Shown in pieces: positions 7,605 through 15,319 of a stretch of 37,717 nucleotides of DNA. The DNA lies in the IMG/VR virus record IMGVR_UViG_3300042305_001267, positions 1 through 37,717 of that record; one strand, written 5' to 3'. Position numbers and translations under genes: made by a program. Numbering within the stretch: position 1 is the stretch's first letter; each line of letters starts with the position of its first letter. The stretch is from a virus. Under the pieces are notes generated by a model, which did no database searches, was not told the DNA's origin, and saw only the letters and a program-made list of their open reading frames with translations.

Positions 7605-9077
7605 ATGCACCCACCTAACAACGAAGAGAAGAACCTCTACCTCGACTGGCAGCGTAATAAACTCTATGCTTTCGGGACGTTAAGCCTTATCGCCCTTGTC
7701 ACGGGGATGGCCCTTTTCCTCCGGGCGCATGAGATGTTTCTCTTGTTCCTGCCCATCATGGGACTCACGGCGCTGTATCTCGCGGTGAGTTACCTCGTCG
7801 TCTGGACGGCCCTGCCTTTCAGTAAGGCGCTTCACGAGTTCACAAAGCAAGCACAGGGAGCGCGAAAGCCCGTTGATATTCTCTACCCGACCTGTGGGGA
7901 ATCCTTAGAAACAATCGCTGACGCTCTCGTATCAATCCGCCTGGCCGCCGATGCCTGGCATCCCGATTCGACTGTGTGGGTTTTGGATGACTCCGGGAGA
8001 GTGGAGGTCGCGTCTCTCGCTGATCAGTTCCAAATGAACTACCGCTCTCGTCCCAATAAGGGCGAAGGGAAGAAAGCGGGAAACTTACTTTCCGTTTGGC
8101 CGGAATTGACCCATGACTTCTTCTGCATCTTCGACGCTGACTTTCGTCCCTCGATCGAGTTCTTCCCGGAGTTAATGCCCCACTTCTCGACGAAGAAAGT
8201 CGCCATCGTTCAGTCGCCCCAGTTCTTCCGAGTCGAAGGGAATTGGATCTCGAAAGGTGCGGCCCAAGTTCAGGAGCTCTTCTACCGAATCATCCAAGTC
8301 GCCAGAGACTACTGGGGTGCTCCGATCTGTGTCGGGACCAACGCGATCTATCGGCGAGAGGCGTTCCCGAATGGGACTTACCAAATTTCATACTCCGAAG
8401 ACGTTCACACTGGATGGGACGCGAAGGCTCGGGGGTATTGGATTCAGTACGTGCCCTTGAATCTCGCGGTGGGGGAATGCCCTACCAAGGTTAAAAACTT
8501 CTTTGTGCAGCAGTACCGTTGGGCGATGGGGTCGTTATCACTTGCCGGTAATATCGAATTCTGGCGCTCCCCGATCGGAGTCATGAGAAAACTCTGCTAC
8601 TCGTGTGGATTCGGTTACTACATTTCCACAGGGCTCTCGGTGGTCGTGGCGTTCCTCCCATCCCTCTTCGTGCTCGTCTATCGACCGGATATGTTTAAGT
8701 ACTGGAACTATTTCTTCGTGCTTCCCTCGCTGCTCTTCTCGATCATCGGGATGGCGAAGTGGAGTAAAGCGAAGTTCGGCGTGTATTCCCTGGTAGTAAA
8801 ACGCATCTCGAGTGGCGCTCATTTCTCGGCTCTCGTTGATCGCATGACTGGGAAGATGATCCCCTGGCAGCCAACCGGGGGAGCGGTGTCCTCCTCATGG
8901 AAGTTCTATGCTTGGCTAGGGTTTCAGTGGTTCTGGCCGTGCCTCATGACTGGGGTCCTCTTGACGGTGGGACTCGCAACCGTGCCGATGATTCACTTGA
9001 TCCCTACGGTGCTTACTGCGGGGCTTGAACTGTATCTCGCGGGTTGTGTGCTCGCTCTCTATGCGAAGCACGGCTGA
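7605..9077 (+). CDS. Cellulose-synthase-like membrane glycosyltransferase (GT2)
   Basis: This 490-aa inner-membrane enzyme has the full signature of a processive GT2 synthase. Two N-terminal membrane segments (about 21-40 and 43-70) precede a cytoplasmic catalytic domain with VLDDS (D128, D129), KAGN (157-160), DAD (177-179), an ICVGTNAIYRR acceptor-side motif (241-251), SED (264-266, in the place of TED) and QQYRW (QxxRW, 302-306). Three or four further membrane segments follow (about 330-360, 366-384, 437-485). Such enzymes polymerise a sugar nucleotide and export the chain (cellulose, hyaluronan and similar glycans). No PilZ domain is present. It is the first gene of the rightward operon. 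The sugar donor cannot be told from sequence. Confidence 0.93.
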   Translation: MHPPNNEEKNLYLDWQRNKLYAFGTLSLIALVTGMALFLRAHEMFLLFLPIMGLTALYLAVSYLVVWTALPFSKALHEFTKQAQGARKPVDILYPTCGESLETIADALVSIRLAADAWHPDSTVWVLDDSGRVEVASLADQFQMNYRSRPNKGEGKKAGNLLSVWPELTHDFFCIFDADFRPSIEFFPELMPHFSTKKVAIVQSPQFFRVEGNWISKGAAQVQELFYRIIQVARDYWGAPICVGTNAIYRREAFPNGTYQISYSEDVHTGWDAKARGYWIQYVPLNLAVGECPTKVKNFFVQQYRWAMGSLSLAGNIEFWRSPIGVMRKLCYSCGFGYYISTGLSVVVAFLPSLFVLVYRPDMFKYWNYFFVLPSLLFSIIGMAKWSKAKFGVYSLVVKRISSGAHFSALVDRMTGKMIPWQPTGGAVSSSWKFYAWLGFQWFWPCLMTGVLLTVGLATVPMIHLIPTVLTAGLELYLAGCVLALYAKHG

Positions 9078-11356: not shown

Positions 11357-11493
11357 GCTACGGAGAAACGAAACAACCGAGGTCTTCGATAGGAGAGCCC
11401 GAGCCGTATTTCTTTTGGCAGATGTACCCATGGCAACCGATGAGCCTTGTCGGGATACGCCACGGGTTTGAGCGCAAATGGATCGGAGGATGA
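11353..11493 (+). CDS. Possible small protein, 46 aa
   Basis: A TTG at 11353 overlaps the SSB stop (TTGA) and opens a 46-residue frame rich in aromatics and proline (EPEPYFFWQMYPWQPM, HGFERKWIGG). The overlap pattern is the one used throughout this operon, and the end of the frame contains the GGAGG that lies in front of the next gene. There is no family match, and the start codon is weak. Confidence 0.4.
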   Translation: MSYGETKQPRSSIGEPEPYFFWQMYPWQPMSLVGIRHGFERKWIGG

Positions 11494-11698
11494 TATAACT
11501 TTACCGGACGAGAGAGCCCGTTCTCTGAAGTGGGCCAAAGAATTCCTGCGCTCGCTGTGCGACCCCAAGGCGACTCCAAGAGTGCCTAAAGCGGTGCGTA
11601 TGCGTGCGCGGGATGTGCTTAGACACTTCCCATCCGAGTATGAGCTTGAAGATGCATTGAAACGGTCTAAGTATTTTGAAGTGGAGGAAGAGAAGTGA
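11447..11698 (+). CDS. BPSL0761-like small phage protein
   Basis: The core ITLPDERARSLKWAKEFL ... RARDVLRHFPS resembles the BPSL0761-type family (pattern M-T-x-P-x-E-R-T-R ... REFL ... R-H-Y-P-S), whose function is unknown. The annotated start is a TTG at 11447 (83 aa). That gives a 16-residue extension lacking any Shine-Dalgarno. The family-like start would fall on codon 11495, which is ATA and lies 5 bases after a perfect GGAGG (11485-11489). Initiation at AUA would be unusual but fits both signals; the product would be 67 aa. The stop overlaps the next gene's GTG. Confidence 0.7.
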   Translation: MSGYATGLSANGSEDDITLPDERARSLKWAKEFLRSLCDPKATPRVPKAVRMRARDVLRHFPSEYELEDALKRSKYFEVEEEK

Positions 11699-12375
11699 AC
11701 TTAGTTGCTATTACGGAACTTATTCAAAACGAGATCTCTAAAGAGACCGATGACTCCAAGAAGCTCGAAGCTATAAATGAAATCAAATCTTTTTTGCACG
11801 AGCTTAGCCCACTAAAGAGCGAGCCAGTAAACAACGTCCAATGGATTCCTGGACACCTGCTCGACGCGAACGATTACAACCCAAACTCTGTCGCCCCCGT
11901 TGAAATGAAGCTGCTCGAGCACTCAATCAGAGAAGACGGATACACTCAGCCTATTGTCGCCTGGCGTAAAGATGATGGCCGTTTCGAGGTTGTGGACGGC
12001 TTCCATCGAAACAGAGTTGGGAAAGAGTCAAAGGTAGTTTCCAGCCGAGTAAAAGGCTTTTTGCCGATCGTAGTGATCAACTCTGCACGCGCAGACAAGT
12101 CGGATCGAATTGCCTCAACGATTCGCCACAATCGTGCGCGGGGTAAGCACGCGGTCAACTCGATGAGTGACATTGTCGTTGACCTAAAAAAACGCAATTG
12201 GAGCGATGAAAAAATAGGGCGAGAGCTTGGCATGGACCCGGATGAGGTCCTGCGTCTGGCTCAAATCAGCGGGCTTGCAGAGATGTTTGCAAATCGCGAA
12301 TTCTCAAAAGCCTGGGTCGCAAATTCAATTAATGAGTCCGACACACTCCAAGATTTTACGGAGGTTGCAGAATGA
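11695..12375 (+). CDS. ParB/sulfiredoxin-fold protein, IbrB/YbdM-like
   Basis: A 226-aa protein with a helical N-terminal extension (1-45), then a ParB-N fold: VQWIPGHLLDANDYNPNSV, an MKLLEHSIREDGYTQPIVAW segment, EVVDGFHRNRVGK with the DGxHRxR signature (101-107), and ASTIRHNRARGKHAV (140-153). A helix-turn-helix-like segment follows (WSDEKIGRELGMDPDEVLRL, 169-188). This arrangement matches IbrB/YbdM-type proteins that pair with PAPS-reductase-like IbrA/YbdN. GTG start after GGAGGAAGAG, overlapping the previous stop. It is first of a three-gene overlapping cassette. Whether it binds DNA, hydrolyses nucleotide or cleaves nucleic acid is not decided by sequence. Confidence 0.85.
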   Translation: MNLVAITELIQNEISKETDDSKKLEAINEIKSFLHELSPLKSEPVNNVQWIPGHLLDANDYNPNSVAPVEMKLLEHSIREDGYTQPIVAWRKDDGRFEVVDGFHRNRVGKESKVVSSRVKGFLPIVVINSARADKSDRIASTIRHNRARGKHAVNSMSDIVVDLKKRNWSDEKIGRELGMDPDEVLRLAQISGLAEMFANREFSKAWVANSINESDTLQDFTEVAE

Positions 12376-12785
12376 ACGAAGAGATTAAACGGTTTTATTT
12401 CCCTTACACAGAATGGGAGTGCTTCAACGCCGGAATGTATGACACTCGGCTTAAGTTTTTAGATGAGCAGCAAGTGATTCAGGAATGCGTCGATATGCTG
12501 TCGTGTCCGAACTATCTGCAAGAATCGATGCTATTTGTCACGCATCACTGGGTAAAATCTGCGCATCAACACCTCAGTAATACAGCGCGGAATCGGCAGG
12601 CGTATCTTGGGCAGACCGCAAGCTGTTGGGCTCATGGTGCTCCAGAGTTTATCACTAAGCGCGCATGGAACGAATTGACACCTGAGCAACAGAAGGCCGC
12701 GAACGATGTTGCGGATTACGTTATTGCAGACTGGGAAGAAAAACTGAAAACGGGATATTGGAAGCGTGTCAAAAACATATCTTGA
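12372..12785 (+). CDS. Unrecognised protein inside the IbrB-IbrA-like cassette, 137 aa
   Basis: No family recognised. The protein begins MNEEIKRFYFPYTEWECFNAGMY and continues with QQVIQECVDML, a segment rich in H/W (FVTHHWVKSAHQHLSNTARNR), SCWAHGAPEF and a helical C-terminus (ELTPEQQKAANDVADYVI, DWEEKLKTGYW). Three cysteines and six histidines are dispersed and could bind metal, though no standard motif is seen. It overlaps the ParB-like gene by 4 bp and the PAPS-reductase-like gene by 20 bp. The tight overlap implies that it works with them. Confidence 0.75.
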   Translation: MNEEIKRFYFPYTEWECFNAGMYDTRLKFLDEQQVIQECVDMLSCPNYLQESMLFVTHHWVKSAHQHLSNTARNRQAYLGQTASCWAHGAPEFITKRAWNELTPEQQKAANDVADYVIADWEEKLKTGYWKRVKNIS

Positions 12786-13989
12786 GCAGGACGTTCTAAG
12801 CGCCGCCAAAGAACGCATCGAAAAAACATTCAATGAGTTTGAGCGCGTGTATGTGAGCTTTTCTGCTGGTAAAGACTCGACCGTAATGCTTGGGCTTGTC
12901 GCTGAAGAAGCCCGAAAGCGCGGAAGAAAGTTTGGTCTTCTGTTTATTGATTTAGAAGGTCAGTACAAACTCACGATTAATCACGCCGAGCGAACCTTTA
13001 AAGAACTAGCAGACTGCACCGAGCCTTACTGGGTATGCCTGCCAATCCACCTTCGCAACGCAGTCTCGGTTTATGAGCCCTTCTGGGTATGTTGGGAAAA
13101 AGATAAGCGCAACCTTTGGATTAGAGATCTCCCTGAACAAGCGATCTCGGATGAATCGTTTTTCCCGTTCTTCAAACACGGCATGGAGTTCGAAGAGTTC
13201 GTCCCTGAGTTTGGCGAGTGGTACTCACAAGGAAAGCGCACTGCATGCTTAGTGGGAATTCGCGCCAATGAATCACTGAACCGATTTCGCACAATCGCAA
13301 GCCGGTCCAAGATTAGATTTAACGATTACCAGTGGACAACGAAGGTCACCGAGAACACCTATAACGTATATCCGATTTACGATTGGACAACGGCGGATCT
13401 TTGGACTTGGCACGCAAAATCCGGCGCACCTCACAATGAGCTGTACGATCGGATGTATCAAGCGGGGCTTTCAATTCATCAGATGCGTATTTGTCAGCCT
13501 TATGGGGATGATCAACGGCGCGGACTTTGGCTCTTTCACCTACTTGAACCGCAAACGTGGGCGAAGGTTGTCTACCGCGTGAATGGAGCAAACGGAGGGG
13601 CGCTCTACGTCAAGGAATGGGGCAACATCAACGGGTATCGCACGGTGAATAAACCAAAGGGACACACCTGGAAGTCATTCGCCACACTACTCATTGAATC
13701 AATGCCTCCGCAGACGAAGGAGCACTATCGCGCGAAGATTTTTGTCTTTAATGAATTTTGGAAGACGCGCGGGTATCCTGACGGTATTCCTGACGAAGGA
13801 GACTACGCGCTTGAAGTGAAACGTCAGATTCCTTCGTGGCGTCGCATTTGTAAATCACTCCTTCGAAATGACTTCTGGTGCAAAGGTCTAAGTTTCACGC
13901 AACACAAGAGCGACGCATACAAAGCATATCTTGAGAGAGTGAAGAAGAAGGCTGAAGCTGCCGGGATTCAAATGGAGGCGGTGCTTTAA
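12766..13989 (+). CDS. PAPS reductase-like PP-loop protein, IbrA/YbdN-like (DUF3440 type)
   Basis: A 407-aa adenine-nucleotide alpha-hydrolase-fold protein. The PP-loop SFSAGKDST (S33-A34-G35-K36-D37-S38) follows a helix and strand (EFERVYVSF). Further family-like segments are FGLLFIDLEGQYKLT, VGIRANESLNRFR, a YNVYPIYDWTTADLWTWH stretch and CQPYGDDQRRGLWLFHLLEP. The C-terminal region (about 320-400) is helical. Members of this branch are not known to reduce PAPS; IbrA acts with IbrB in activating eib prophage genes in E. coli. The ATG lies 20 bp inside the upstream gene. Last gene of the cassette. Confidence 0.88.
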   Translation: MSKTYLEQDVLSAAKERIEKTFNEFERVYVSFSAGKDSTVMLGLVAEEARKRGRKFGLLFIDLEGQYKLTINHAERTFKELADCTEPYWVCLPIHLRNAVSVYEPFWVCWEKDKRNLWIRDLPEQAISDESFFPFFKHGMEFEEFVPEFGEWYSQGKRTACLVGIRANESLNRFRTIASRSKIRFNDYQWTTKVTENTYNVYPIYDWTTADLWTWHAKSGAPHNELYDRMYQAGLSIHQMRICQPYGDDQRRGLWLFHLLEPQTWAKVVYRVNGANGGALYVKEWGNINGYRTVNKPKGHTWKSFATLLIESMPPQTKEHYRAKIFVFNEFWKTRGYPDGIPDEGDYALEVKRQIPSWRRICKSLLRNDFWCKGLSFTQHKSDAYKAYLERVKKKAEAAGIQMEAVL

Positions 13990-14618: not shown

Positions 14619-14951
14619 ATGCGTTACTTTATCGGATGCGTCATGTTCATGTTGTGCGGTCAGTCTGAGGCCGGGTCTGTGAAGCTCATGCTCGAGCCCG
14701 CCTTGATCGGGAAAGAAGTCTATATGTCCGGCGGGATCAATATCCACGAGTCGGTCAATCAACTCTTAGGCGTGAACGTGTTCGCTGGGGTCGAAGCCGA
14801 CCAGATGAAAACCTTCAGCATGGAACCCACCGAGATGGCGGAAGTCAAAGCAGTCATGGGCTACGAGAAGATTTCTCTTCAACCAGGTGTCCGTTATTTC
14901 AATAAGAATCAAAATGTTGTGGGATTCATCCGCCTAGAGTACAAGCTCTAA
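14619..14951 (+). CDS. Exported beta-rich protein, 110 aa
   Basis: A signal peptide (MRYFIGCVMFMLCGQSEA, probable cleavage near residue 18) precedes amphipathic strands: SVKLMLEPALIG, VYMSGGINIHE, LLGVNVFAGVEAD, and a final pair QPGVRYFNKN / VVGFIRLEYKL. Alternating residues and a last strand ending in an aromatic plus hydrophobic residue resemble outer-membrane barrel strands, but about 90 residues is short for a closed monomeric barrel. It could be a multimeric outer-membrane or periplasmic protein affecting receptor access (inference). Good Shine-Dalgarno TAGGAGAT. It is convergent with the nuclease gene, overlapping by 4 bp. Confidence 0.72.
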   Translation: MRYFIGCVMFMLCGQSEAGSVKLMLEPALIGKEVYMSGGINIHESVNQLLGVNVFAGVEADQMKTFSMEPTEMAEVKAVMGYEKISLQPGVRYFNKNQNVVGFIRLEYKL

Positions 14952-15319
14952 GCATCCTTGAAATGCTCCAGGTCCGGGGGTGCTTGTTCAGGCTCCCGGA
15001 TTAGTGCCTTTAAAACATCCTCCACACCTCTAGCGACAAACGCGATCCCGCCCTGGGATTTGAACTCCTCGATAAACTCGATCTGTTCCTTGCTCACCAC
15101 CCCGTCGGACTTCTTCACTTCAACGGCCAGTGGTCGACCTCTCCAGATCCCTAGAATATCTGGCACACCTTTACGGTAGTAGGCAGACCGGTGAGTCGCC
15201 CTGGTGTGATTCGTGTTCCTCCAGACCATGCACTTCGGCTGTGCAGAGAGGAAATCAAGGATCTCTTTAACGAGTGGAGTTTCCGATTCTCTCGAGGATT
15301 TGATCTTGTTTATTCTCAA
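14948..15319 (-). CDS. VRR-NUC domain nuclease
   Basis: This 123-aa PD-(D/E)xK nuclease has the VRR-NUC pattern: a helical start with SETPLVKEILDFL, KGVPDILGIWRGRPLAVEVKK (catalytic D in PDIL, then E-x-K) and the hallmark EQIEFIEEFKSQGGIAFVARGVEDVL. Family members process branched DNA or act as Holliday-junction nucleases. Here it is the last gene of the late operon, so a role in trimming packaging substrates is plausible. The start is a TTG at 15319 inside the upstream holin-like gene. Confidence 0.9.
   Translation of the reverse strand: MRINKIKSSRESETPLVKEILDFLSAQPKCMVWRNTNHTRATHRSAYYRKGVPDILGIWRGRPLAVEVKKSDGVVSKEQIEFIEEFKSQGGIAFVARGVEDVLKALIREPEQAPPDLEHFKDA

Follow-up and report, generated by a model that had tools for sequence, protein, structure and literature searches.

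The window, by which we mean the whole 37,717-nucleotide stretch analysed (IMG/VR record IMGVR_UViG_3300042305_001267, positions 1 to 37,717), derives from a phage, with matches to terminase subunits, tape measure and tail proteins, and an amidase. Just downstream of genes for Gp157, Erf/Rad52 and SSB, at the end of the early recombination operon, its plus strand carries a cassette of three genes. These encode an IbrB-like protein of 226 amino acids with a ParB/sulfiredoxin fold (11695..12375, GTG start), an all-helical protein of 137 amino acids that belongs to an undescribed, almost purely viral family (12372..12785, ATG start; hereafter the middle protein), and an IbrA-like protein of 407 amino acids that combines a PP-loop ATP-pyrophosphatase domain with a DUF3440 domain (12766..13989, GTG start). 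The ParB and middle genes overlap by 4 bp and the middle and ibrA genes by 20 bp; reading frames, starts and overlaps are exactly those of the original prediction for this locus. Good ribosome-binding sites were found for the ParB gene and the middle gene (GGAGGAAGAG and GGAGG). On the 5' side, a gene of the BPSL0761 family (11447..11698, plus strand, 83 amino acids; above the cut-off of NCBIfam NF041728) runs 4 bp into the ParB gene, so that four genes are chained; it was absent from the recurrent neighbour clusters of cassette loci and does not belong to the conserved cassette. A 490-residue family 2 glycosyltransferase (Pfam Glyco_trans_2_3 and Glycos_transf_2) is encoded ahead of the early operon at 7605-9077 on the plus strand, and a gene for a VRR-NUC or Holliday-junction-resolvase-like nuclease lies at 14948-15319 on the minus strand.

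The ParB protein matches phrog_2159 (E 7e-74), contains a ParB_N domain (Pfam, 28.5 bits versus a cut-off of 26.3) with a helix-turn-helix-like segment after it, and is 48% identical to Escherichia coli YbdM over the whole protein. Its relatives in the PDB are ParB, Noc and SbnI; with the model for ParB/RepB/Spo0J partition proteins (TIGR00180) it scores 22.9 bits, well under the 58.45 needed for membership. The three motifs named in the original prediction, two of them in this protein and one in IbrA, are all present. The presumed nucleotide-binding motif DGFHR (11995..12009, plus strand) is invariant in alignments that include YbdM, and within IRHNRARGKH (12121..12150, plus strand), which occupies the position of the third ParB box, RHNRARG and the final histidine are invariant.

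The IbrA-like protein is 46% identical to E. coli YbdN over its entire length and scores 116 bits with the Pfam model DUF3440 (PF11922; cut-off 25) and 55 bits with PAPS_reduct. It is a member of PHROG_2302, which is named PAPS reductase and placed in the sulfur-metabolism category, and GenBank annotation uses the same name for IbrA. The earlier description of the protein as PAPS-reductase-like is borne out at the level of the superfamily fold but not as an enzyme identity. Its PP-loop, SAGKDS (12862..12879, plus strand), has G35-K36-D37-S38 invariant in 80 sequences; in alignment, the S(G/A)GKDS segment corresponds to SSSFGIQAAV in E. coli CysH, while CysD keeps the loop. The catalytic ECGxH cysteine of CysH was found in none of the 80 IbrA sequences, including that of the window as aligned with E. 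coli CysH. Judged by its sequence, then, IbrA is not a PAPS reductase, as the ATP-pyrophosphatase loop is intact and the CysH catalytic cysteine is missing; the intact loop favours an ATP-cleaving, probably adenylating enzyme, and the likeness to PAPS reductases is best confined to the ATP-pyrophosphatase/adenylyltransferase side of the superfamily, represented by CysD and FAD synthase. The AlphaFold model of IbrA (pLDDT 88.7) has FAD synthase as its closest structural match (Z 15.4, rmsd 3.6 over 175 residues), with APS/PAPS reductases at Z 13.8-14.9 and CysD at Z 14.2; since all of these fall within about 1.6 Z units, the fold alone cannot choose among them, and the matches cover the PP-loop domain, so that the DUF3440 part (about residues 268-407) is barely tested by them. 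The comparison with DndC that had been drawn for this gene likewise holds for the superfamily and fails for anything closer: IbrA scores 24 bits with the NCBIfam equivalog model of DndC, whose cut-off is 290.4, and the DndC-type cysteines (the dyad and the 4Fe-4S ligands) have no counterpart, with CxxC in 2 of 80 sequences and the conserved cysteines scattered, none of them invariant.

The middle protein of the window matched no family in Pfam, PHROGs, NCBIfam or PADLOC, and searches of Pfam and PHROGs with all 65 aligned members of its family gave only isolated hits, each involving one or two members. A scan of viral contigs with a five-sequence alignment retrieved at least 562 relatives, among them proteins of annotated Microcystis, Pseudoalteromonas, Pseudomonas and Mycobacterium phages, in each of which the gene adjoins those for ParB and IbrA; cultured phages with the cassette include Pseudomonas phage Amjad_SA, Mycobacterium phage Gaia and Microcystis phage Mwe-JY13. 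These hundreds of homologues, encoded by a free gene or as part of a fusion, exclude a frameshifted known gene. Seven residues are invariant among the 65 sequences (W15, E16, N74, R75, A77, G80 and A114) and could have a structural role or form a binding site; W15-E16 are encoded at 12414..12419, and N74, R75, A77 and G80 fall within the family signature NRxA(W/Y)(L/I)G(Q/H)A(A/S), which reads NRQAYLGQTA in the window (12591..12620; both on the plus strand). The original prediction had singled out this protein as rich in histidine and cysteine. These residues are not conserved, and the family consensus S-C-E-H-x-L reads S-A-H-Q-H-L in the window, so a metal-binding His/Cys protein can be discarded as a family trait. 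The AlphaFold model is confident and all-helical (pLDDT 94.5, pTM 0.87). Its best Foldseek match in the PDB has an E value of 1.4, and the best VIA-align match, Z 3.5 over 65 residues, is at the background level for helical proteins; in BFVD, the sole significant match is a protein of 116 amino acids, equal in length to the homologue in Pseudoalteromonas phage XCL1123. Going by the model, a new fold is possible. Our literature searches, largely outside subscription journals, turned up no description of a third component of IbrAB.

The three genes are tightly linked. When loci were seeded with the middle protein alone, both partners were found on the same strand in 78 of the best 80 loci out of at least 562, and in the two exceptions the contig stops at the expected site of the missing gene; no other neighbour family exceeded 26 of about 98 loci. 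This arrangement lies far beyond chance. Seeding with IbrA gave the same picture for viral loci, with ParB in 77 of 78 (the remaining one being cut by a contig end) and the middle gene in 65, leaving 13 without it. Like nearly all of its relatives, the window has an IbrA gene together with an IbrB-like ParB gene; here the third gene separates the two. Among 84,980 bacterial and archaeal genomes, the middle protein had 8 hits, all in metagenome-assembled genomes and 7 of them with both partners; the search pattern would catch about 57% of the family (37 of 65 members), so the family is rare in these genomes rather than missed. In one bacterial class, a genome-scale survey for DUF3440 found it in 1 of 194 genomes, namely the seed genome. 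Pairwise distances of the three proteins are correlated (0.29, 0.52 and 0.71, with none of 500 permutations as high), which partly reflects shared phage ancestry.

The order of the genes is far less stable than their association. Mapped on a 112-sequence IbrA tree, the parB-mid-ibrA, mid-ibrA-parB, ibrA-parB-mid, fused, substituted and third-gene-free architectures require at least 21 changes between them; third-gene losses and replacements are part of this count, which comes from a FastTree phylogeny with local support only. The genes are thus readily reordered, yet the set persists. In about 59 loci, nested within the parB-mid-ibrA clade, the C-terminus of ParB is fused to the middle domain through a linker of roughly 25-30 residues. 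As the trio is fixed and the middle protein is often fused to ParB, the three proteins almost certainly act together as a unit, and we consider it very probable that IbrA, the IbrB-like ParB and the middle protein form a single module. The idea that an uncharacterised third component acts together with the IbrB-like and IbrA-like proteins, proposed originally from the overlaps, has become a strongly supported one through linkage, fusions, grouping that persists through rearrangements and an in-place substitute; the profile search and tabulation of neighbours suggested with it yielded no described family for the 137-residue protein and the partners listed above, and neither a lack of such neighbours elsewhere nor a frameshift explains the gene away.

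The substitute is a second small protein, unrelated to the middle family (phrog_26647, with a GSRGI motif), that is encoded directly upstream of ibrA in 8 of the 13 IbrA-seeded viral loci without the middle gene. Conversely, in all 13 viral loci seeded with the substitute itself, ibrA and parB follow directly downstream. Its family was found in loci L136, L154, L157, L134, L137, L008 and L194-L206. The substitute and the middle protein never co-occur in 78 loci (Fisher 5e-8). This mutual exclusion draws on about two evolutionary events: on the IbrA tree the substitute has about two origins, one of them giving a nine-member clade inside the mid-ibrA-parB loci, which indicates in-place replacement in roughly two events and not eight independent cases. 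Other neighbours are more restricted. In one cassette clade an EctC-like cupin is encoded between ibrA and parB or, in Mycobacterium phage Gaia, fused to ParB (L002, L006, L024, L083, L086 and L087). Fifteen loci have an extra reading frame of 79-99 codons directly 3' of the middle gene, whose product resembles the C-terminal end of IbrA/DUF3440 (for example L006:5293-5583 and L017:2877-3176, with 13 other loci). In phages of Streptococcus, Flavobacterium, Lactobacillus and Fusobacterium without the 137-residue protein (L010-L014), a SNF2-type helicase gene adjoins the IbrA-ParB pair and, in 4 of these 5 loci, overlaps the neighbouring cassette gene, and another helicase type occurs near 8 cassette loci; neither type is constant, so a helicase was rejected as a fourth part of the cassette. 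A gene resembling those for DNA cytosine methyltransferases, named by eye from its sequence, lies 1.6-3 kb 3' of the cassette in L042, L045, L050, L053 and L094.

What the trio does has to be judged mainly from its parts, and homology to ParB and PP-loop enzymes would fit several functions; gene regulation, nucleic-acid modification and conflict, the functions suggested originally, are all still candidates. The best explanation of the whole, although we hold it with somewhat less than even confidence, is an ATP-driven, DNA-bound enzyme unit of three subunits; the chemistry and target outlined here are offered a little more tentatively still. The natural fusions strongly suggest that the 137-residue subunit binds the IbrB-like protein and occupies the place of the ParB C-terminal domain. 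IbrB, by analogy with what is known of its family, would bring the unit to DNA through its nucleotide-binding ParB/Srx domain and its helix-turn-helix-like segment. IbrA is predicted to be a PP-loop ATP pyrophosphatase that adenylates a substrate (ATP -> AMP-X + PPi) and does not reduce sulfate, because its loop is intact, its fold agrees and the catalytic cysteine is missing. Most likely, and this is the least certain step, the trio would use ATP early in infection to alter DNA or a regulator bound to it, an alteration that would mark or reprogram phage DNA, and the third subunit, exchangeable for a different protein, would confer specificity for the target or partner. The position in an Erf/SSB recombination operon was counted in favour of this enzyme unit. 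A bolder version is possible but unlikely: a DNA-directed adenylating machine of three subunits, widespread in phages and hidden under the name of PAPS reductase, that would install an undescribed modification of DNA (or protein), its target set by the exchangeable small subunit.

Alternatively, the trio might be a transcription regulator comparable to E. coli IbrAB acting on the eib genes, with IbrB binding DNA, with IbrA as sensor or producer of an adenylylated ligand, and with the third protein as a link to RNA polymerase or a host factor. SbnI, one of the solved relatives of IbrB, combines serine-kinase and regulatory roles and so lends this reading some weight, as do the ParB domain and helix-turn-helix-like segment of IbrB and the fact that annotated phages list IbrAB as co-activators of prophage genes. 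Activation of eib prophage genes by IbrAB (Sandt et al. 2002, as cited in PMC10434257), which also favours regulation, is to our knowledge the only genetic result for this family. However, the trio resides mostly on viral contigs and bacterial genomes seldom have it (8 hits in 84,980), which makes the switching of prophage genes improbable for most copies, and the catalytic PP-loop, intact in 80 of 80 IbrA sequences, suggests chemistry. We regard regulation as less likely than the enzyme unit but as a live alternative. A role in counter-defence or inter-phage conflict, in which the trio would adenylate or consume a host defence molecule or protein or attack the DNA of competitors, is rather improbable but likewise a live alternative. 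Patchy distribution, reshuffled gene order and a swappable component would suit it, and loci for defence, Dnd and BREX type 4 among them, repeatedly contain ParB and PP-loop proteins (PMC10853773, PMC12839542), but PADLOC gives only weak similarity to DndC/BrxP, confined to the PP-loop domain of IbrA, and one weak methyltransferase match for the ParB protein, and the neighbour clusters contain no nuclease or toxin gene as a constant partner.

The names given by PHROG and GenBank would instead make IbrA a PAPS reductase that helps the host to produce reduced sulfur, with the other two proteins incidental. This is very improbable, as the ECGxH cysteine is absent throughout the 80 sequences, the ATP-cleaving loop, lost in true CysH, is retained, the ParB and third-protein partners are constant, and no cysI, cysJ, cysN or cysD adjoins ibrA in the annotated phage neighbourhoods examined. 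For the three-subunit enzyme unit, modification of nucleic acid or of its regulators is a likelier task than sulfate reduction. PAPS reductase has been reported as a viral sulfur-metabolism gene in many virome papers; with a large IbrA branch that by its sequence is not PAPS reductase and that travels with ParB and a third subunit, part of this ecological story may need revision.

Among known systems, CysH shares with IbrA the PP-loop superfamily fold and the motifs GxRxxxS...R and P(I)xDW, and IbrA differs from it in the intact GKDS loop, in lacking the ECGxH cysteine and in its additional DUF3440 domain. The PP-loop domain of FAD synthase and CysD have in common with IbrA the intact GKD loop and the DWxxxDIW motif, although identity is low (18-19%) and both are without the DUF3440 domain. 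In DNA phosphorothioation, the ParB-superfamily NTPase DndB works with the PP-loop protein DndC (PMC10853773), a pairing that resembles the cassette; unlike Dnd, the cassette has no DndA, DndD or DndE, and IbrA no conserved cysteine dyad. The closest counterpart is the E. coli pair IbrA-IbrB or YbdN-YbdM, which has the same motifs and adjacent, overlapping genes and is present in 1913 of 5426 complete E. coli genomes. That pair consists of two genes only, ibrA being the first, in contrast to the three genes of the window; profile searches found no third component in three E. coli loci (phage PhiR5_2, O145 and S1-KEN-05-A), and the MG1655 gene map has no third gene next to those for YbdN and YbdM, so a third component is what distinguishes the phage form. 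The constant trio, the fusions and the swapped subunit turn the long-unexplained IbrAB/YbdNM pair into a module with testable partners.
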